Assembly: GCF_004959775.1 (NCBI RefSeq)
Contig: NZ_SJZG01000001.1
Span: 372,001-436,000, forward strand
Origin: Agromyces sp. H66
Lineage (GTDB): Bacteria > Actinomycetota > Actinomycetes > Actinomycetales > Microbacteriaceae
DNA: 64,000 nt
Reading direction: 5' to 3'
Both the position numbers and the translations under genes were made by a program. Under the pieces are notes generated by a model, which was not told where the DNA came from, did not search any database, and saw only the letters and a program-made list of their open reading frames with translations. Position 1 is the stretch's first letter. Each line of letters opens with the position of its first letter. Positions 2,478 through 49,755 of the stretch are shown here, one piece after another.

Positions 2478-3695
2478 ATGCTGAGGCGTCCCGCAACGAC
2501 GGGCATTCGGGAGGCGATCGACATGGCCATGTCCGCACGAGCCGTCGCGGCGAAGGGGTCGGTCGACACGGTCACGACGTTCTTCTCGAGCATCCAGGAC
2601 GCGGCGGGCGACCCCGACGCGCTCGATTTCACGTTCGGCAACCCGCACGAGATGGCACTCCCGGGGCTCACGAACGCGATGCGCGCGCAGCTCGAGCCGC
2701 GGTCGGTCGACTGGTTCGCCTACAAGACCAACGAGCGACCCGCCCAGGAGGCCGTTTCCGCCGGCCTGCGCACCGAACTCGCCCTCGACTTCGAACCCGA
2801 CGACATCGCGATGACGCAGGGCGCCTTCGGCGCGATCTCCCTCGCGCTCGCGATGCTCGCGGACGCCGGCGACGAGGTCGTCATTCCCGTGCCGGGCTGG
2901 TTCTGCTACGCGCCCATGCTCCACGCGGTGAACCTCGTGCCCGTCGGGGCCGCACTCGACCCCGTCGACTTCTCCCTCGACCTCGACGCGATCGCCCGTT
3001 CGCTCACCCCGCGCACCCGGGTGGTCATCGTGAACTCGCCGGCCAATCCCACGGGACGCGTCTATCCGAAGGAGACGTGGGACGCGCTCGCCGAACTCCT
3101 CGACGAGACATCCAGGCGACACGGGCGGCGCATCTGGATCCTCTCGGACGAGCCGTACCGCCGCATCCGATTCGACGGCATCGGCTTCACGACACCCGCG
3201 GCCTCCTACCCGTGGACGGTCATCGACTACAGCTACGGCAAGGTCCTGCTGGCCCCCGGGCAGCGCCTCGGATACCTCGCCCTCTCGCCACTGCTCCCGA
3301 GCGCGGAGCGCGCAGAACTCAGGGCCGCCCTCATGCCGCTGCAGCTCGCGATCGGCTGGGGATTCCCGGATGCGCTCATGCAGTACTCCGTCCCCGCCCT
3401 CGAGGGCGTGTCCATCGACGTGGCGGAACTCACCCGCCGGCGGGATCGCCTCTACGGCGCGCTGCGGGACGCCGGATACACGCTCACCCGGCCCGAGGGC
3501 ACGTTCTACCTCTGGGGCCGGGCGCCCGGGGGCGACGGCGCGGCGTTCTGCGCGGCGCTCGCCGCCCGCGGCGTGTACCTCATGCCGGGCACGCTGTTCG
3601 ACCAGCCCGAGCACTTCCGCATCTCGCTCACCCCGACGATGGACATGATCGAGCGCGCCCTCCCGACCCTCGTCGAGGCCGGCGAGCCGGGTTAG
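2478..3695 (+). CDS. PLP-dependent aminotransferase, class I/II
   Basis: 405-residue fold-type I aminotransferase. The Schiff-base lysine is K255 in SYGKVLLAPGQRLGYLA. Other family marks are the NPTG segment (VNSPANPTGRVYP) and the aspartate of SDEPYRRI. The C-terminal half contains RISLTPTMDMIERALPTL, whose arginine would bind the substrate carboxylate. I chose the ATG at 2478, directly after a GGGGGAGGG run, because the residues that follow (TTGIREAIDMA) look like a normal N terminus; the ATG at 2523, with GGGAGG about 9 nt upstream, is the alternative. It overlaps the GH3 gene tail to tail by 4 bp. Substrate not recognisable, and no pathway link to the sugar genes is evident. Confidence 0.88.
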   Translation: MLRRPATTGIREAIDMAMSARAVAAKGSVDTVTTFFSSIQDAAGDPDALDFTFGNPHEMALPGLTNAMRAQLEPRSVDWFAYKTNERPAQEAVSAGLRTELALDFEPDDIAMTQGAFGAISLALAMLADAGDEVVIPVPGWFCYAPMLHAVNLVPVGAALDPVDFSLDLDAIARSLTPRTRVVIVNSPANPTGRVYPKETWDALAELLDETSRRHGRRIWILSDEPYRRIRFDGIGFTTPAASYPWTVIDYSYGKVLLAPGQRLGYLALSPLLPSAERAELRAALMPLQLAIGWGFPDALMQYSVPALEGVSIDVAELTRRRDRLYGALRDAGYTLTRPEGTFYLWGRAPGGDGAAFCAALAARGVYLMPGTLFDQPEHFRISLTPTMDMIERALPTLVEAGEPG

Positions 3696-6070
3696 TCCAC
3701 GGACACGATCGCGACGTCGGGGTGCAGCCGCCGGGTGTGATCCACCCTGCGCGTCGCGCCGACCAGCCGCACCGTGTGCGCGAACGGCAGGTCGCCGCTC
3801 GAGCGGCCGGCGCTCAGCACGATCTCGCCGGGCTCCACGATCCGCTCGCCCGAGCGTCCCGTGAACGACGCGAGTTCGGCCGGAACCGTGAAGCGCACCT
3901 CGGCCTCCTCGCCGGGCCCGAGCTCGACCCTCGTGTAGCCGATGAGACGTTGCACGGGTCGCACGACCGACGCCACCGGGTCGTGCAGGTAGAGCTGCAC
4001 GACCTCGGTGCCGGCACGGTCGCCCGAGTTTCGCAGCCGCAGGCGCACGTTCGCCTCGCCGTCGACGCCGATCTCATCCTCGTCGCCAGTGAACGACTCC
4101 CACTCGAACGCCGAGTAGCCGAGGCCGTGGCCGAACGGGAAGGCCGGCGTCGGGTCCACGTTCGACACGCCGTTCGCCCGCGCGAGCGGCGCCGCGAGGT
4201 AGGTGGTGGGCTGCGAGCCCGGCGTCGCGGGGATCGACACCGGCAGGCGACCGCTCGGGTTCACGCGTCCGCTCAGGACGCCCGCGATCGCCGGTGCGCC
4301 CTCCTCGCCGGCGAAGAACGCCTGCACGATGGCCGCGGCATCCGTCACGGCGCGACCGAGGGCGTACGGCCGCCCGGTGAGCAGCGTCACGACGGTCGGG
4401 GTTCCCGTCGCAAGCACGGCGTCGACGAGCTCCTGCTGCGCGCCGGGCAGGTCGAGTGCCTCCGCGTCGCAGCCCTCGCCGCTCGTGCCGCGGCCGAAGA
4501 GGCCGGCGCGGTCGCCGAGTGCGAGGATCACGACGTCGGCGGATGCCGCGAGCGCCGCGGCATCCGCGATGCCCTCGGTCTCACCGCCGTCGACCGACGT
4601 GCCCGTGGCGTGACGGATGTCACTGCCCGGGAACTCCGCCCGGAGCGCCTCGAGCAGCGTCGGGATCTCGATGCCCATGGCGACGCCGGGGTGCTGCACG
4701 ACGACGTGCGCGGGGAACGAGTAGCAGCCGAGCATGGCGTACGGGTCGTCGGCGTTCGGGCCGATGACCGCGATCGTGCGAGGAGAAGATGGCGCGATCG
4801 GCAGCGTGCCGTCGTTCTTCGCGAGCACCACCGCCTCCTCGGCGAGCCGCGCCGCCAGCGCGCGGTTCTCCGGGGAGTCGAGGTCGATGCGGCCGCGGAG
4901 CGCGTCGGCGTCCGTGACCCCGACGCCCTCGAGGGCGCTCGGCACCGGCGACCAGTCGGCATCGAGCATGCCGAGTTCCGCCTTCTGGCGGAGCACCCGG
5001 CGCAGCGCCGTGTCGATGGTCGACTCCGCCACGGCGCCGGCCTCGACCGCTCGGCGCAGCGGCTCGCCGAACGTCTTCACCGTCGGCAGCTCGACATCGA
5101 TGCCCGCCTCGAGCGCCGCCCCCGCGGCATCCGCCCACGACTCGGCCGTGCCGTGCAGGAGCTTCAGGAACGCGATCGTGAAGTAGTCGGCGACGACCGT
5201 GCCCTCGAAGCCCCACGTGTCGCGGAGGAGCTCCGTGAGCAGGGTGCGGTCGGCGGCCGTGGGCACGCCGTCGAGGTCGGTGTACGCGTTCATGACGCTG
5301 CGCGGGCCGCCCTCGCGCACGGCCATCTCGAACGGCGGCAGCAGCACGTCGGCGAGTTCGCGCGGTCCGACCGACACGGGCGCGAGGTTGCGTCCGCCCT
5401 TCGAGGCCGAGTAGCCGACGAAGTGCTTCAGCGTCGCGATGACCCCGGATGCCTCGAGCCCGCGCACGTACGCGGTGCCGATCGTGCCGACCAGGTACGG
5501 GTCCTCGCCGATGGTCTCCTCGGTGCGGCCCCACCGGGCGTCGCGCACGACGTCGAGCACGGGGGCGAGGCCCTGGTGCACGCCCACCGATCGCATGTCG
5601 GCGCCGATGCGCCGTGACATCCGCTCGACGAGCTCGGGGTCGAACGTCGCCCCCCACGACAGGGGGACCGGGTAGGCGGTCGCGCCCCAGGCGGCGAAGC
5701 CCGCGAGGCACTCCTCGTGCGCGAGGGCCGGAATGCCGAAGCGGTTCGCCGCGACGATGCGCTCCTGGGTGCGCACGAGGGAGAGCGCGCCGGAGGCGGC
5801 ATCGATGGGTGCCGTGCCGAACTGGCGCGTGAGCTGACCGAGGCCCGAGGGGAGCAGCCCGTCGAGGTCGATGTGATCGTCCATCTCGTGCTGGTGCGGC
5901 GCGACGTCGGCGCCGCCGTCGTCGGATGCCCCGACCCACACGCCGTAGAGCTGGGCGAGCTTCTCGTCGAGGGTCATCTCGGCCACGAGCGCGTCGACGC
6001 GCTCGTCGACCGGCCGGGCGGCGTCTTGCCAGGGCCGGATGTCGCGTGCGGCAGCGAGTTCCTGCGTCAT
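3692..6070 (-). CDS. Beta-glucosidase/beta-xylosidase, GH3
   Basis: 792-residue glycoside hydrolase family 3 protein. The N-terminal TIM-barrel domain carries the KHF substrate-binding motif (215-217) and the nucleophile D295 in TVVADYF. A C-terminal alpha/beta sandwich (from about residue 370) and a fibronectin-III-like domain (LRNSGDRAGTEVVQLYL onwards) follow, as in BglB/XylB-type enzymes. There is no signal peptide, so it probably cleaves oligosaccharides brought in by the two permeases encoded just upstream. The start overlaps the permease stop as ATGA (6067-6070), giving translational coupling as the last gene of the operon. The DY in place of the common DW after the nucleophile is a variant. 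GH3 certain; glucose versus xylose specificity cannot be read from sequence. Confidence 0.93.
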   Translation of the reverse strand: MTQELAAARDIRPWQDAARPVDERVDALVAEMTLDEKLAQLYGVWVGASDDGGADVAPHQHEMDDHIDLDGLLPSGLGQLTRQFGTAPIDAASGALSLVRTQERIVAANRFGIPALAHEECLAGFAAWGATAYPVPLSWGATFDPELVERMSRRIGADMRSVGVHQGLAPVLDVVRDARWGRTEETIGEDPYLVGTIGTAYVRGLEASGVIATLKHFVGYSASKGGRNLAPVSVGPRELADVLLPPFEMAVREGGPRSVMNAYTDLDGVPTAADRTLLTELLRDTWGFEGTVVADYFTIAFLKLLHGTAESWADAAGAALEAGIDVELPTVKTFGEPLRRAVEAGAVAESTIDTALRRVLRQKAELGMLDADWSPVPSALEGVGVTDADALRGRIDLDSPENRALAARLAEEAVVLAKNDGTLPIAPSSPRTIAVIGPNADDPYAMLGCYSFPAHVVVQHPGVAMGIEIPTLLEALRAEFPGSDIRHATGTSVDGGETEGIADAAALAASADVVILALGDRAGLFGRGTSGEGCDAEALDLPGAQQELVDAVLATGTPTVVTLLTGRPYALGRAVTDAAAIVQAFFAGEEGAPAIAGVLSGRVNPSGRLPVSIPATPGSQPTTYLAAPLARANGVSNVDPTPAFPFGHGLGYSAFEWESFTGDEDEIGVDGEANVRLRLRNSGDRAGTEVVQLYLHDPVASVVRPVQRLIGYTRVELGPGEEAEVRFTVPAELASFTGRSGERIVEPGEIVLSAGRSSGDLPFAHTVRLVGATRRVDHTRRLHPDVAIVSVD

Positions 6071-45228: not shown

Positions 45229-45708
45229 ATGGAGAAGGAGACGAACATGCAGGACTTCGTGATGACCATCTACATCAAGGCCGACCCGCAGGTCGTGTGG
45301 GATGCGATCACCGGCGACGAGGGCAACCGCGCCGTGATGTGGGGATCGGTGCTGCGCGGCGATCTCGTGCCGGGCGGCCACTTCGAGTACGTCGGGCCGG
45401 GCATCGGCGGCGACGAGACCGTGCACGTCTACGGCGACGTGGTGCAGGCCGACCCCGGCGACATCCTGCGGCTCATCGAGCATCCCGGTCCGCTCTATCG
45501 CGAGAACCACGCCGAGCTCTCGAGCCGCATGACCTGGCGCCTCGAGCAGGCCGCGATCGGTCTCACCAAGCTCACGTTCACGAACGACCAGTGGAGCCCG
45601 GGGCATCCGTCGCATGCCGACACCGTGGAGAGCTGGCCGATGGTGCTCTCGAGCCTGAAGTCGTGGATCGAGACGGGAGAGGCCATCCCGCCCATCGATC
45701 CCTCGTAG
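45229..45708 (+). CDS. SRPBCC (AHSA1-type) domain protein
   Basis: 159-residue hydrophobic-pocket protein of the START/AHSA1 superfamily (MTIYIKADPQVVWDAITGDEG at the N terminus, SWPMVLSSLKSWIETGE as the last helix). Members bind lipids or other small hydrophobic ligands. Two starts are credible: ATG 45229 with TAGGTT 6 nt upstream (leaderless) and ATG 45247 with AAGGAG 6 nt upstream. Divergent from the AraC regulator, a typical regulator-target arrangement. The stop is one bp from the stop of hipA. Confidence 0.85.
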   Translation: MEKETNMQDFVMTIYIKADPQVVWDAITGDEGNRAVMWGSVLRGDLVPGGHFEYVGPGIGGDETVHVYGDVVQADPGDILRLIEHPGPLYRENHAELSSRMTWRLEQAAIGLTKLTFTNDQWSPGHPSHADTVESWPMVLSSLKSWIETGEAIPPIDPS

Positions 45709-45709
45709 G

Positions 45710-46918
45710 TCAGGCGAACTCCCCGCGGCGCAGCCGGAGCTCGCGGAGGGCGCCGTTCAACGGTGAACCCTCGAAGCCGACCCCGGCGAGGTCGACGGAT
45801 GCCGCCGCGTTCAGCGCCACCGCCTCGGCCGAGCGGGCCGCACGTTCGGGCAGGCCGATGGCCGCGGCGAAGGCGTGCCAGTGCCGTGCGCGGAGGTTGC
45901 GGGTGCGGCCGTCGATGGGCAGGGCCATCGACGTGTCGCCGTACACCAGGGTGCAGAGCACGTCGTAGATCGGCGCCACCGCCCAGGTGCCCGGCCGGGT
46001 CTCGAGCACCGAGAGGTTCTTCGCGTGCAGGTCGCCGTTGCCGGTGAGCCAGGCGAACAGGAACTGCAGGTAGAGGTTGCGGGTCGCGACGAGCGGCGCC
46101 GAGGCGACGGATGCCAGTGACCGCACGACCTCCTCGGCGGGGATCGCGTACTTCGAGGCCGGCGGTACCGCGAGCACCTGGGTCGCGTCCTCGAGTGCGA
46201 GCCGATCCCACGAGCCGTCGGAGCGCGGAACCCGGTCGAAGCGTTCGACGAGCAGGCCCGTGACCTCGTTCCGGTCGTGGACCAGCGTGGAACGCTCGAC
46301 CGGCACCTTCAGCGTCTTCGCCGCCCGGAGGTGGGCCGCCTCGTTCTGCACCAGCAGGGGGTACTCCGGTGGCGACACCTTGAGGATGAATCGGCCCGCG
46401 CGGGTGGCGAGCGGCGTGCTGATCATCGACGCGCTGGCCTTGCGCTGCACGCCGGGGATCGCATGCCGGTCGATGCCCTCGACGAGCTCGGCGAAGTCCA
46501 TGGCGTCGGGTGCGGTGGCGCCGATCAGGGGCGCCGGGTCGGCCGGGGCCGTGCCCGCGACGACGACCTGCACGTCGCCGGGCACGTCCTGGCCGACGGC
46601 GAGCAGCAGGCTGAGTTCGTCGCTGGCGCTCGTCTTCACCGCGCGCTGCAGCACCGACAGGCGATGGCCCTCGGGCAGCAGCCCGGCGAAGAACGGCGGC
46701 AGGGCGCCGGCGGGCGTGACGACCTCGCGGTCGTCGACGGGGAGCGAGGTCGCGATCGGTCGCGGGTGCTCGTCGTCGCGCGCACGGTTCAGGTACTCGG
46801 GCAGGTAGCGGAACAGCGTCGACCCGTCGTCGCTCCGCTCGATGCGTGCGGCGAGGACGCCCGCCTTGTAGACGTCGGCGGCTCGGGTGAACCGCAGCCG
46901 CTCGAGGTCGTCGGTCAT
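45710..46918 (-). CDS. hipA: HipA-family serine/threonine kinase toxin
   Basis: 402-residue HipA-like kinase. The N-terminal subdomain (VYKAGVLAARIERSDDGSTLFRY) is followed by the phosphorylatable glycine-rich loop PGVQRKASASM (155-165), the ATP lysine K180 in RFILKVSPPEYP, the catalytic D296 and N301 in NGDLHAKNLSVL and the metal Asp D319 in PIYDVLCT. HipA phosphorylates a tRNA synthetase and causes dormancy. All catalytic residues are present, so it is probably active. It overlaps hipB by 4 bp (46915-46918), antitoxin first, in the usual order. Confidence 0.94.
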   Translation of the reverse strand: MTDDLERLRFTRAADVYKAGVLAARIERSDDGSTLFRYLPEYLNRARDDEHPRPIATSLPVDDREVVTPAGALPPFFAGLLPEGHRLSVLQRAVKTSASDELSLLLAVGQDVPGDVQVVVAGTAPADPAPLIGATAPDAMDFAELVEGIDRHAIPGVQRKASASMISTPLATRAGRFILKVSPPEYPLLVQNEAAHLRAAKTLKVPVERSTLVHDRNEVTGLLVERFDRVPRSDGSWDRLALEDATQVLAVPPASKYAIPAEEVVRSLASVASAPLVATRNLYLQFLFAWLTGNGDLHAKNLSVLETRPGTWAVAPIYDVLCTLVYGDTSMALPIDGRTRNLRARHWHAFAAAIGLPERAARSAEAVALNAAASVDLAGVGFEGSPLNGALRELRLRRGEFA

Positions 46919-47118
46919 CCGTCGGCCACCAGCCGCAGCCCGACGACCTCCGCCACGCGGGCGACGATGCCGAGGCTCGTCGTGCCCGTGCCCTTCTCGA
47001 TGTCGCGCACCGTGCGCGTCGAGGTGCCGGCGAGTTCGGCGAGTTGTTCCTGGGTGAGACCAGCCGACTTCCGCGCCTCGCGGATGCGCGCGCCGATGGT
47101 GCGCGATGCCTCTTCCAT
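46915..47118 (-). CDS. hipB: HipB-type Xre-family antitoxin
   Basis: 67-residue DNA-binding protein with a Cro/CI helix-turn-helix (RIREARKSAGLTQEQLAELAGTSTRTVRDIEKG). It should neutralise HipA and repress the operon. The ATG at 47118 is chosen because GGAGG lies 5 nt upstream; the ATG at 47130 would overlap operator O1. Three near-identical palindromes lie upstream, matching its expected operators. Shorter than E. coli HipB (88 residues), which has a longer C terminus. Confidence 0.92.
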   Translation of the reverse strand: MEEASRTIGARIREARKSAGLTQEQLAELAGTSTRTVRDIEKGTGTTSLGIVARVAEVVGLRLVADG

Positions 47119-47129
47119 TCGCGCCTCCA

Positions 47130-47271
47130 TTCGGCGGTATCCTGCCGAATCACCGTGGGACTGCATCCCACCGGCGCTCGCGCCATGTATTTCGGCAGGA
47201 TACTGCCGATTTCGAATGCCGGCAAGAGCAGGCCATCCGTTCGCGCGCATATTCGGCAGTATCCTGCCGAC
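47130..47271. promoter_or_regulatory. Three evenly spaced HipB operators
   Basis: O1 47130-47149 (TTCGGCGGTATCCTGCCGAA), O2 47191-47210 (TTCGGCAGGATACTGCCGAT) and O3 47252-47271 (TTCGGCAGTATCCTGCCGAC) are 16-20 bp palindromes of one pattern. Their centres are exactly 61 bp apart in both intervals, close to six helical turns. O1 adjoins the hipB start; O3 contains TATCCT (47260-47265), a possible -10 box for the rightward gene at 47316. Confidence 0.88.
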
Positions 47272-47315: not shown

Positions 47316-47798
47316 ATGCGGCGCATCTTGGACCTCCGGATCATCCGGTGGGAGTTGAAGCTGCTCTACGTCATCGGCGCCCTGTTCGTCGGCTGGTTCG
47401 TCGTCGGAGCGGGGATGCGGGCGATCGGGATTCCGGACGTGGCGGTGAGTATCGTCGGCACGATCATCGAGGTGGCTGCGCTCCTCCTCGGCGCGCGGAT
47501 CTTCCGCGGTCGAGGCGAGCCGATCGCCCCGCCACGTGCGTGGTGGCGGATGACGGCGCGGCCGGCACTCAGCCGACGGCTCGGCGTGCTCTTCCTCGTG
47601 CCGGCGGTGGTCGGTCTCTTCGGCGTCGCAGCCTTTCCGCTCGAGTGGTCGCCCGGTGAGCTGGCGTCCGCGATCATGTCGGTCATCGAGTTCTCCGTGG
47701 TCGCCGCTCTCTATCTCAACTCGGCCGTCCGCCTGGGGCGGCTGCCGATGCCGCCGAAGGAGCCGAAGTTTCGACCGAAGGTGCGCCTGAAGCCGTAG
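47316..47798 (+). CDS. Four-segment membrane protein divergent from hipBA
   Basis: 160-residue protein of unknown function with four predicted membrane segments: LYVIGALFVGWFVVGAGM, VAVSIVGTIIEVAALLLGA, LGVLFLVPAVVGLFGVAAF and MSVIEFSVVAALYLNSAV. The C terminus is lysine/proline-rich. AGGA 5 nt before the ATG fixes the start. Its promoter region lies between HipB operators O2/O3 and the gene, so it is likely to be controlled together with hipBA. I do not recognise a family. Confidence 0.75.
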   Translation: MRRILDLRIIRWELKLLYVIGALFVGWFVVGAGMRAIGIPDVAVSIVGTIIEVAALLLGARIFRGRGEPIAPPRAWWRMTARPALSRRLGVLFLVPAVVGLFGVAAFPLEWSPGELASAIMSVIEFSVVAALYLNSAVRLGRLPMPPKEPKFRPKVRLKP

Positions 47799-47844: not shown

Positions 47845-49755
47845 ATGTCCGACGACGCGGTGAAGCAAGCACAGGAGGCGGCCGCTGCAGCGGCCGCGGC
47901 GGCGGAAGCGCTGCAGGCGCAGGCCCAGGAGGCGATCCGCAAGGCGGAGGAGGCGGCGGCGCTCGCGCAGGCGGCACTCGACGCGCAGCAGCGGGCCGCA
48001 GAGGAGGTCGCTGAGCCTGTCGAAGCAGGCGAGACCGACGCATCCGCCCCTTCGGCGAGCTCTGGGAACGGAAGCACGGCCACCGCCGCCGGCGCTCGGC
48101 CCGCGACATCCGGCCCGCTCGACGATGCCCAGGTCTCCGCGATCCGCGACGGCTACGCGTTCGAGGCCGCGGCCCTCGAGATGGGCGCGCTCGTGAACGG
48201 CGAGGCCATGCCGGATGTCCCGGTGCGCATCCCGATCGCGATGACGAACCGGCACGGGCTCGTCGCGGGCGCCACCGGCACGGGCAAGACGCGCACGCTC
48301 CAGCTGCTCGCCGAGCAGCTCGCTGCGCACGGCGTCGCGGTGTTCGCGGCCGACATCAAGGGAGACCTCTCGGGCCTCGCGACTCCGGGTGCGGCGAGCG
48401 ACAAGCTGCTGCAACGCACCGACAGCATCGGACAGGCGTGGGGCGCGGCATCCTTCCCGGTCGAGTTCTTCTCCCTCGGCGGCATCGGTCGCGGCGTGCC
48501 GATCAGGGCGACGATCTCGGGCTTCGGCCCGCTGCTGCTCAGCAAGGTGCTCGGCCTCAACGACACGCAGGAGTCGAGCCTCGCGCTCGTCTTCCACTGG
48601 GCCGAGGACGCCGGCATGGCGCTCCTCGACCTCGAGGACCTCCGCGCCGTGCTGCAGTACCTCGTGAGCGACGAGGGCAAGGCCGAACTCGAGCACCTCG
48701 GCGGGCTCTCGAAGGCGACCGTCGGTGTCATCCTCCGCGAGCTCGTCGCGTTCGCCGAGGCCGGCGCCGACGTCTTCTTCGGCGAACTCGAGATCGACAC
48801 CGCGGAGTTCCTGCGCGTGGCGTCCGACGGCCGTGGCATCGTGAGCCTGCTCGAGGTGCCGGGCGTCGCCGACCGGCCCGCGCTGTACTCGACGTTCCTC
48901 ATGTGGTTGCTCGCCGACCTCTTCAACGACCTGCCCGAGGTCGGCGACCTCGACAAGCCCAAGCTCGTGTTCTTCTTCGACGAGGCGCACCTGCTCTTCA
49001 AGGACGCCTCGAAGGACTTCCTCGCGCAGGTCGTGCAGACCGTGCGGCTCATCCGCTCGAAGGGCGTCGGCGTCTTCTTCGTCACCCAGACCCCGAAGGA
49101 CGTGCCCGGCGACGTGCTCGCGCAGCTCGGCTCGCGCGTGCAGCACCAACTGCGCGCGTTCACGCCCGACGACGCGAAGGCGCTGCGCGCCACCGTCTCG
49201 ACGTACCCGAAGTCGGGCTACGACCTCGAGGAGACGCTCACCATGCTCGGCACGGGCGAGGCCATCATCACGGTCATGAACGAGAAGGGCGCACCCAGCC
49301 CCGTCGCCTGGACCCGGATGCGGGCACCGCAGGCGTCGATGTCGCCGAGCCCGGATGCCACGATCGAGGCTGCCGTGGCGGCATCCCCCCTGCAGGCGAA
49401 GTACGGCACGCCGATCGACCGTGAGTCGGCGCACGAACTCCTCACGGCGAAGATGAACGCCGCCGCGGCGGCCGAGAGGGCCGCTGAGGATGCCGCCGCC
49501 AAGGCGAAGGCCGATGCCGAGTTCGCGAAGCAGCAGGCCGCGATCGAGAAGCAGCGCGAGAAGGAGCGGAAGGCCGCGCAGGCCGAGTACGAGCGGCTCA
49601 TGAAACGCACCTCGGGCTCGTCGCGGTCGCGGTCGCGCAGCACGTCGACCCGTCGCGAGAAGTCGGCGCTCGAGGAGGTGCTCGGCTCTCGCACGACCCA
49701 GAAGGTGCTGACCGGGGTCCTGGAGGGCATCTTCGGCACGCGGCGCCGCCGATGA
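47845..49755 (+). CDS. HerA-like (DUF853) ATPase
   Basis: 636-residue P-loop ATPase. A coiled-coil, alanine-rich N terminus (residues 1-60) leads to the Walker A motif GATGTGKT and DIKGDLSGLA; the Walker B is KLVFFFDEAHLLF and sensor-like motifs follow in VGVFFVTQTPKDVPGDVL. A second charged coiled coil (residues about 530-600) and a basic serine/arginine tail end the protein. It matches the DUF853 proteins related to the HerA translocase/helicase family; the physiological role is unknown. TAGGAT 6 nt before the ATG indicates a leaderless mRNA. Residues AEPVEA come from a repeat copy (48011-48026). Confidence 0.9.
   Translation: MSDDAVKQAQEAAAAAAAAAEALQAQAQEAIRKAEEAAALAQAALDAQQRAAEEVAEPVEAGETDASAPSASSGNGSTATAAGARPATSGPLDDAQVSAIRDGYAFEAAALEMGALVNGEAMPDVPVRIPIAMTNRHGLVAGATGTGKTRTLQLLAEQLAAHGVAVFAADIKGDLSGLATPGAASDKLLQRTDSIGQAWGAASFPVEFFSLGGIGRGVPIRATISGFGPLLLSKVLGLNDTQESSLALVFHWAEDAGMALLDLEDLRAVLQYLVSDEGKAELEHLGGLSKATVGVILRELVAFAEAGADVFFGELEIDTAEFLRVASDGRGIVSLLEVPGVADRPALYSTFLMWLLADLFNDLPEVGDLDKPKLVFFFDEAHLLFKDASKDFLAQVVQTVRLIRSKGVGVFFVTQTPKDVPGDVLAQLGSRVQHQLRAFTPDDAKALRATVSTYPKSGYDLEETLTMLGTGEAIITVMNEKGAPSPVAWTRMRAPQASMSPSPDATIEAAVAASPLQAKYGTPIDRESAHELLTAKMNAAAAAERAAEDAAAKAKADAEFAKQQAAIEKQREKERKAAQAEYERLMKRTSGSSRSRSRSTSTRREKSALEEVLGSRTTQKVLTGVLEGIFGTRRRR

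Follow-up and report, generated by a model that had tools for sequence, protein, structure and literature searches.

The window analysed here, a stretch of 64,000 nucleotides from Agromyces sp. H66, contains a hipBA toxin-antitoxin (TA) cassette that is preceded by three palindromes located at regular distances from each other. HipBA is a classic persistence module, and the comparative data make it likely that the cassette is autoregulated and set between resident genes, and that HipB and HipA on three register-fixed sites would form one repressing assembly. The features of the region are as follows.

45229..45708, plus strand: AHSA1-domain gene (PF08327), resident left neighbour
45710..46918, minus strand: hipA, predicted Ser/Thr-kinase-type toxin of 402 aa with HipA_C and Couple_hipA domains
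46915..47118, minus strand: hipB, XRE-family antitoxin/repressor (HTH_3, 51.1 bits)
47130..47149: O1, 20-bp palindrome nearest hipB, just 5' of the hipB Shine-Dalgarno sequence, exact motif match
47191..47210: O2, 20-bp middle palindrome, 61 bp from O1, exact motif match, with matching sites in relatives
47252..47271: O3, 20-bp distal palindrome, 61 bp from O2, exact motif match
47316..47798, plus strand: MP, membrane protein of 160 aa, a resident neighbour and not a proven part of hipBA
47845..49755, plus strand: HerA-like ATPase gene (PF05872, 614.8 bits), resident right neighbour of MP

The two proteins are ordinary members of the HipBA family. HipB is an XRE helix-turn-helix protein with a score of 69.4 bits against TIGR03070 (couple_hipB), narrowly under the cut-off of 71.65; its better start is at 47118, preceded by GGAGG and giving 67 aa, and the alternative start at 47130 gives 71 aa. 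The gene lies directly upstream of hipA, with the stop codon of the former and the start codon of the latter overlapping in ATGA (46915-46918). HipA scores above the cut-offs for both PF07804 HipA_C (137 bits) and PF13657 Couple_hipA (65.7 bits), and the catalytic Asp and the Mg-loop Asp are conserved in an alignment with the NGR234, Klebsiella and E. coli C-terminal sequences, the roles of these residues being assigned in part from PMC7180214. The closest named relative of hipA among the matches listed is from Agromyces bauzanensis (94%). A PADLOC search matched HipB and HipA to nothing beyond generic HTH and weak candidate models, and gave no match to MP.

A preliminary description of this DNA had placed three palindromes between hipB and a 160-residue four-helix membrane protein, with two successive centre-to-centre distances of 61 bp. 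This is confirmed: a scan of the window for TTCGGCRG-N4-CTGCCGA yielded zero-mismatch matches starting at 47130, 47191 and 47252, with centres at 47139.5, 47200.5 and 47261.5, and the predicted model of MP consists of four long helices. The distance from O3 to the MP start codon is 44 bp. Several predicted palindromic operators thus precede hipB, as is typical of HipBA. With the centre fixed as NATN, a search of the genome (4,228,930 bases in 33 contigs) that tolerated up to one mismatch retrieved O1 to O3 and nothing else. With 3 mismatches allowed, the 64-kb window is mildly enriched (21 matches versus a shuffle mean of 11.8), a number reached by 2 of 100 shuffles. A looser operator pattern had exact matches at single places in 26 of the 60 genomes of the genus (0 for the reversed control), and in five of the 26 the match is located at hipBA or at its scar, described below. 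The comparative evidence for the operator array is much stronger than these single-site statistics.

Close relatives of hipA (E<=1e-30) were present in 8 of the 60 genus genomes, and a triple array at 60-61 bp was identified upstream of all eight, five of which are located beside genes other than MP. A site in the O1 position is present at each of the eight loci, and O3 is also found where MP is missing. The sites in G058 are weak, with 5 departures each from the consensus, and gave no confident pair when the spacing was left free. The expectation that the palindromes go with hipBA was borne out by the relatives, in which the spacing is kept while the letters change.

To examine the spacing more widely, we used a consensus-free test that scores three equidistant sites for how palindromic and how alike they are. 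The dataset of 64 actinobacterial loci included 37 of the 40 loci in one hipA match set (the partial loci L135, L142 and L144 were left out), 6 loci from Agromyces, 12 of 13 family hipA matches (the duplicate L157 was dropped) and 9 further loci. The best of 15 spacing windows was 61±2 bp at 50 of the loci, with a margin of <=1.5 at 2 of these, one of them a tie, and another window was best at the remaining 14. When any spacing of 20-150 bp was permitted, two consecutive intervals of 60-62 bp were obtained at 40 of the 64 loci and one such interval at 12; 6 loci had a confident pair but no 60-62 bp interval and 6, including G058, had no confident pair. Over a set of 91 loci, 36 had a spacing of 61 bp and 30 a spacing of 60 bp, as compared to at most 2 loci per spacing in 20 Markov controls. 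Similarly, in a set of 56 loci that includes the 8 genus loci, palindrome pairs at 60 bp were present in 20 and at 61 bp in 15, with control means of about 0.33 for both spacings and maxima of 3 and 2, respectively. An earlier blind scan for triples (43 loci, spacing <=110 bp with slack) was noisy, with 61-62 bp ranked first at many loci and other spacings elsewhere. Since the loci are related, none of these counts represent independent observations.

We also aligned 36 loci, at which both intervals are 60 bp (21 loci), 61 bp (14 loci) or 62 bp (1 locus), values that are close to 60 by construction since the search was restricted to 59-63 bp. The spacer columns in this alignment contain little information or conserved sequence. 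Distant members have operators with few letters in common with those in the window, as exemplified by ACGCACGATCGTGCGC in G623, GCTTGCGTCAGCAAGC in G627 and TTATGTGTG-N2-CGCACATAA in G089, yet their spacing is still 60-62 bp. The genes beyond O3 also differ. According to rough calls with a GC-position heuristic, the nearest gene is divergent at 20 of 43 loci and co-directional at 21, with none at 2. Ten of the 43 loci were scanned for domains: seven of the eight divergent genes encode NUDIX, AMP-binding, RibD_C, alpha/beta hydrolase, cytidylyltransferase, SDR and pirin proteins and the eighth had no Pfam match at 1e-5, and the co-directional genes include isochorismatase and glyoxalase. Judging from these loci, the triple operator is part of hipBA and not of the neighbouring gene. 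The persistence of the spacing across the phylum despite operator drift suggests that the geometry of a multi-operator assembly may itself be under selection, and the spacing rule offers a cheap means of finding HipB operators in unstudied genomes.

The position of the promoter provides one alternative explanation for the fixed distance. Matches to TANNNT peak weakly at 33-35 bp before the centre of O1 (16 matches in 36 loci), which would put the -10 element of hipBA near the middle of the O1-O2 interval and its -35 element at O2; in the window itself, no TANNNT stands out where one would be expected. Such -10-like elements are what would be seen if O1 and O2 simply flanked RNA polymerase and promoter geometry alone fixed the spacing, with no contact between complexes. 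However, the O2-O3 interval, which contains no hipBA promoter, is also 60-62 bp at the 40 free-spacing loci with both intervals. The similar constraint on this interval argues for a distance set by contacts between complexes and not by RNA polymerase only, and we regard the promoter explanation as unlikely.

Another alternative is that the spacing is alike merely through descent from a single ancestral cassette. TA cassettes are mobile, and the patchy occurrence of hipBA (8 of 60 genus genomes) is in line with this idea. Yet, HipA relatives with only 39-46% identity retain 60-62 bp despite quite different operators, and the spacer letters are little conserved. We therefore give common descent alone a rather low probability, somewhat below that of the promoter explanation.

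The preliminary description had further suggested that MP may act as the module's third component, with a role in export, membrane stress or immunity, and that it is co-repressed with hipBA through a HipB loop. MP does face the operators in three species, and there are two indications from promoter positions that it could be repressed from O3. A TANNNT hexamer, mostly TAGGTT or TAGCGT, is located 30-61 bases before the MP start at all 18 close MP loci without hipBA. In G010, TATGGT is located 40 bases before the MP start and O3 occupies the adjoining upstream stretch, thereby covering the expected, and likely, -35 position of MP. In the window, the upstream hexamer of the relatives has been lost, and a scan of the 75 bases before the MP start yields a single TANNNT, the TATCCT inside O3. 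Because this sole nearby hexamer sits within O3, HipB at O3 could repress MP.

The distribution of the two genes argues against a functional module. Matches to MP were obtained in 24 of the 60 genus genomes (E<=0.001), and 21 of these are close (E<=7.1e-28). MP and hipBA adjoin in only three genomes, the window genome (G000), G010 and G002, which corresponds to 3 of the 21 close MP loci and to 3 of the 8 close hipBA loci (2 of 7 if the window locus is not counted). The consistent linkage expected of a three-component TA system is thus missing: 18 of the 21 close homologues lack hipBA and 17 of these also lack the array, and conversely 5 of the 8 close hipBA loci lack MP. Varied divergent genes take its place at other hipBA loci (8 scanned). 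In the wider family, MP was identified in 44 of 299 genomes (E<=1e-8) and hipA in 13 (E<=1e-40); both were present in two, the window genome and G070, on separate contigs in the latter. By the refuting criterion that the preliminary description itself had set, synteny has thus largely refuted the idea of a third component, which we now consider very improbable. A more general caution is that the divergent neighbour of a TA locus need not be a new component.

The neighbourhood of MP is also conserved where hipBA is missing. The AHSA1 gene is located upstream of MP in 13 of the 18 close-MP genomes in which MP is not paired with hipBA, and the gap between the two genes is 61-142 bp in 11 of them, 314 bp in G048 and 1371 bp in G045. 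Downstream of MP, the matched part of a HerA-like gene begins within 2.3 kb in 20 of the 21 genomes, including 17 of the 18 without adjacent hipBA. Since the order AHSA1-MP exists without hipBA in 11 genomes, we conclude that hipBA sits between resident genes. Of the 18 close MP loci that lack hipBA, 17 have no operator array; a solitary site that agrees at 14 of 18 positions lies upstream of MP in one of these, G035. In G045 (L075 6125-7495), an insertion of about 1.4 kb separates AHSA1 from MP; it has no operator array and contains a long open frame that by eye resembles a GntR-type regulator.

The exception is G048 (L077 5835-6148), which has no hipA match but contains the end of hipA and three operators between AHSA1 and MP. 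The alignment of this DNA to G002 covers the AHSA1-hipA junction with the last approximately 45 bp of hipA (78 of 103 columns) and the operator block as far as MP (153 of 218 columns). The O2-O3 interval in this scar is reduced to 47 bp. Since both the end of hipA and the operators are retained, hipBA was once present at this site and subsequently deleted. In a tree inferred from four flanking proteins, G000, G010, G002, G048, G045 and G052 form one clade with a support of 0.99. This fits a single gain of hipBA followed by losses within the clade, although there may instead have been two gains. The sites and their spacing, conservation, synteny and scar can all be read directly from the sequences.

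An origin of the palindromes with the resident MP gene, with hipBA arriving later beside them, would account for the operators and MP in G048, where hipA has no match, but it is refuted by the array-less MP loci (17 of the 18 close loci without hipBA) and by the hipA end in G048, which marks the operators as a remnant, and we give it practically no weight.

MP itself belongs to a family in which the motifs RIxxW, RxFRGxxE, RxWWxMT, LSxxLG and YLNSA are conserved. The AlphaFold2 model has a mean pLDDT of 78.7 and a pTM of 0.52, and had no fold match in the PDB at E<=0.001 (best E 1.8). PspM/Rv2743c was considered as a candidate and rejected, with matches below the thresholds (17.5 of 27.7 bits and 18.5 of 80 bits).

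Taken together, we favour an autoregulated cassette over these alternatives. HipB dimers, together with HipA, would bind the three palindromes 60-61 bp apart in one helical register, and adjacent HipB-HipA complexes would touch each other, either directly or through bending of the intervening DNA. The assembly would shut the hipBA promoter, with the -10 element approximately midway between O1 and O2 in relatives and O2 over the -35 element. Selection would maintain the register, so that the letters of operators and spacers drift while the distance barely changes. MP would be an unrelated chromosomal gene with a promoter that now abuts or overlaps O3, and its co-repression may arise as a by-product in the three species in which it faces this operator. 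The preliminary description had placed the HipB dimers on one helical face of the DNA. The spacing is kept in a register that agrees with a fixed helical phase, but 61 bp corresponds to 5.8 turns at 10.5 bp per turn, and one face is therefore not literally right: the register seems constant, and not a whole number of turns. We infer HipB binding, HipA contacts, bending or looping and repression of hipBA or MP from E. coli; since the operators there differ in sequence and spacing, the mechanism is carried over by analogy.

The E. coli hipBA promoter complex is reportedly known in detail from work by Schumacher in 2015, and a Shewanella HipBA-operator complex is also cited in the literature. As in the window, E. 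coli K-12 has hipB before hipA, several palindromic operators and HipA and HipB domains. The differences are that its four operators have the consensus TATCCN8GGATA (PMC3376134) and spacings of 28/39/28, as opposed to TCGGCAG-N4-CTGCCGA at 61/61, and that its HipA is about 25% identical to the window HipA over the E. coli C-terminal part. Pairs of TATCCN8GGATA at 28 bp are lacking at the window hipBA. The same paper describes autorepression of the operon by E. coli HipB, which binds the four operators cooperatively, and a bend of 70 degrees that HipA-HipB introduces into the operator (PMC3376134). Two other papers consider dimerisation of HipA in the HipA-HipB-operator complex important for repression and neutralisation (PMC7029023, PMC7180214).

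For Caulobacter crescentus hipBA1 and hipBA2, three operator sites are described in PMC8545095, and PMC7029023 mentions identical inverted repeats that recur at intervals "consistent with" the complex of E. coli. In Y4mF-type hipBA (for example y4mEF on pNGR234a), an XRE antitoxin and HipA are likewise preceded by three palindromes at even distances, but these are 49-51 bp apart and, in NGR234, of the type TTTCCCGNNCGGGAAA. NrdR boxes are repressor site pairs with spacings that vary by about one helical turn between species, and the phase dependence of the spacing has been shown experimentally (PMC12051234); NrdR differs in being an unrelated protein family with an unrelated function. Operator spacing is not discussed in the sections consulted of a phylogeny of Hip kinases (PMC8262856). 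Our literature searches turned up neither described HipB operators from actinobacteria, nor a spacing rule of 60-61 bp for their HipBA, nor any account of spacing classes that span families. We therefore count the 60-61 bp array as a probable new form of HipBA autoregulation.

Ala153 of the window HipA is aligned with the serine that precedes the Gly-rich loop of HipA in NGR234 and Klebsiella, the two sequences used for this comparison since the E. coli loop falls outside the aligned stretch. The window HipA thus lacks the autophosphorylated serine before the loop that is typical of E. coli HipA, where we take it to be Ser150. The aligned residue in the 50 loci with 61 bp ranked top is A in 27, G in 16, S in 4, R in 2 and T in 1. 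With Ala or Gly at 43 of the 50 loci, autophosphorylation at this site may be absent from the 61-bp class of HipA.

To place the 61-bp spacing among other HipBA families, we selected 20 of 38 plasmid records and 8 of 1550 further records from outside Actinomycetota, hand-picked so as to be diverse. Six of the records (L179, L190, L191, L192, L197 and L202) are unannotated, and their hipB starts were placed by analogy; L196 was dropped since its antitoxin and toxin are identical to the L188 proteins, and L177 was left out. The measured spacing in E. coli K-12 hipBA is 28/39/28, and relatives of E. coli HipA in Rahnella, Klebsiella michiganensis, an IncHI2 plasmid and two Leisingera plasmids have spacings of 27-28 bp. 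Seven alphaproteobacterial plasmid loci (BG4, NGR234, Roseibium, Novosphingobium, T136, R. tumorigenes and Microvirga) have 49-51 bp twice; a single pair at 49 bp was seen in Tistrella and a pair at 99 bp in Mesorhizobium. There was a weak pair alone, at 47 bp, in L175, and no regular array at L180, L181, L187, L191, L192, L193, L202 and L224.

A second hipBA was identified in the window genome (L174, G000:C1:173000-181000; hipA at 3204-4472, minus strand). It has three TGACTACGAANNCGTAGT-like operators at 27/27 bp, and its HipA is about 25% identical to the first; a similar system with 28/28 spacing is present in G056. Since 27/27 and 61/61 coexist in one genome, the spacing follows the HipBA system and not simply the host.

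A confident pair was obtained at 78 of the 91 loci, with spacings concentrated at 27-28, 49-50 and 60-61 bp. Class values of 27.3, 39, 49.6, 60.5 and 71 fit a line with a step of 10.9-11.0 bp, about one helical turn, with the 39-bp class resting on E. coli (other 39s look accidental) and the 70-72 class on three loci. The 28 + 11n fit was made post hoc, and random sets equalled it once in 1500 trials with four classes and never in 1500 with five. Off-class spacings were also observed: 26/26 in Alteromonas, 54 in Pseudosulfitobacter and 75, 79/81, 58 and 30 elsewhere. If the contact is rotationally fixed and the intervening DNA is bent, the register would be expected to stay constant while the number of whole turns varies. 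Our tentative suggestion, to which we assign slightly less than even chances, is that neighbouring HipB operators across phyla are 28 + 11n bp apart, with n ranging from 0 to 4 mainly by HipBA family, and share the same rotational register. If so, this would imply a common contact between complexes and bending or looping that takes up the extra turns. The intervals at L115, L136 and L179 are 70, 71 and 72 bp, respectively, about one helical turn above the usual 60-61 bp.
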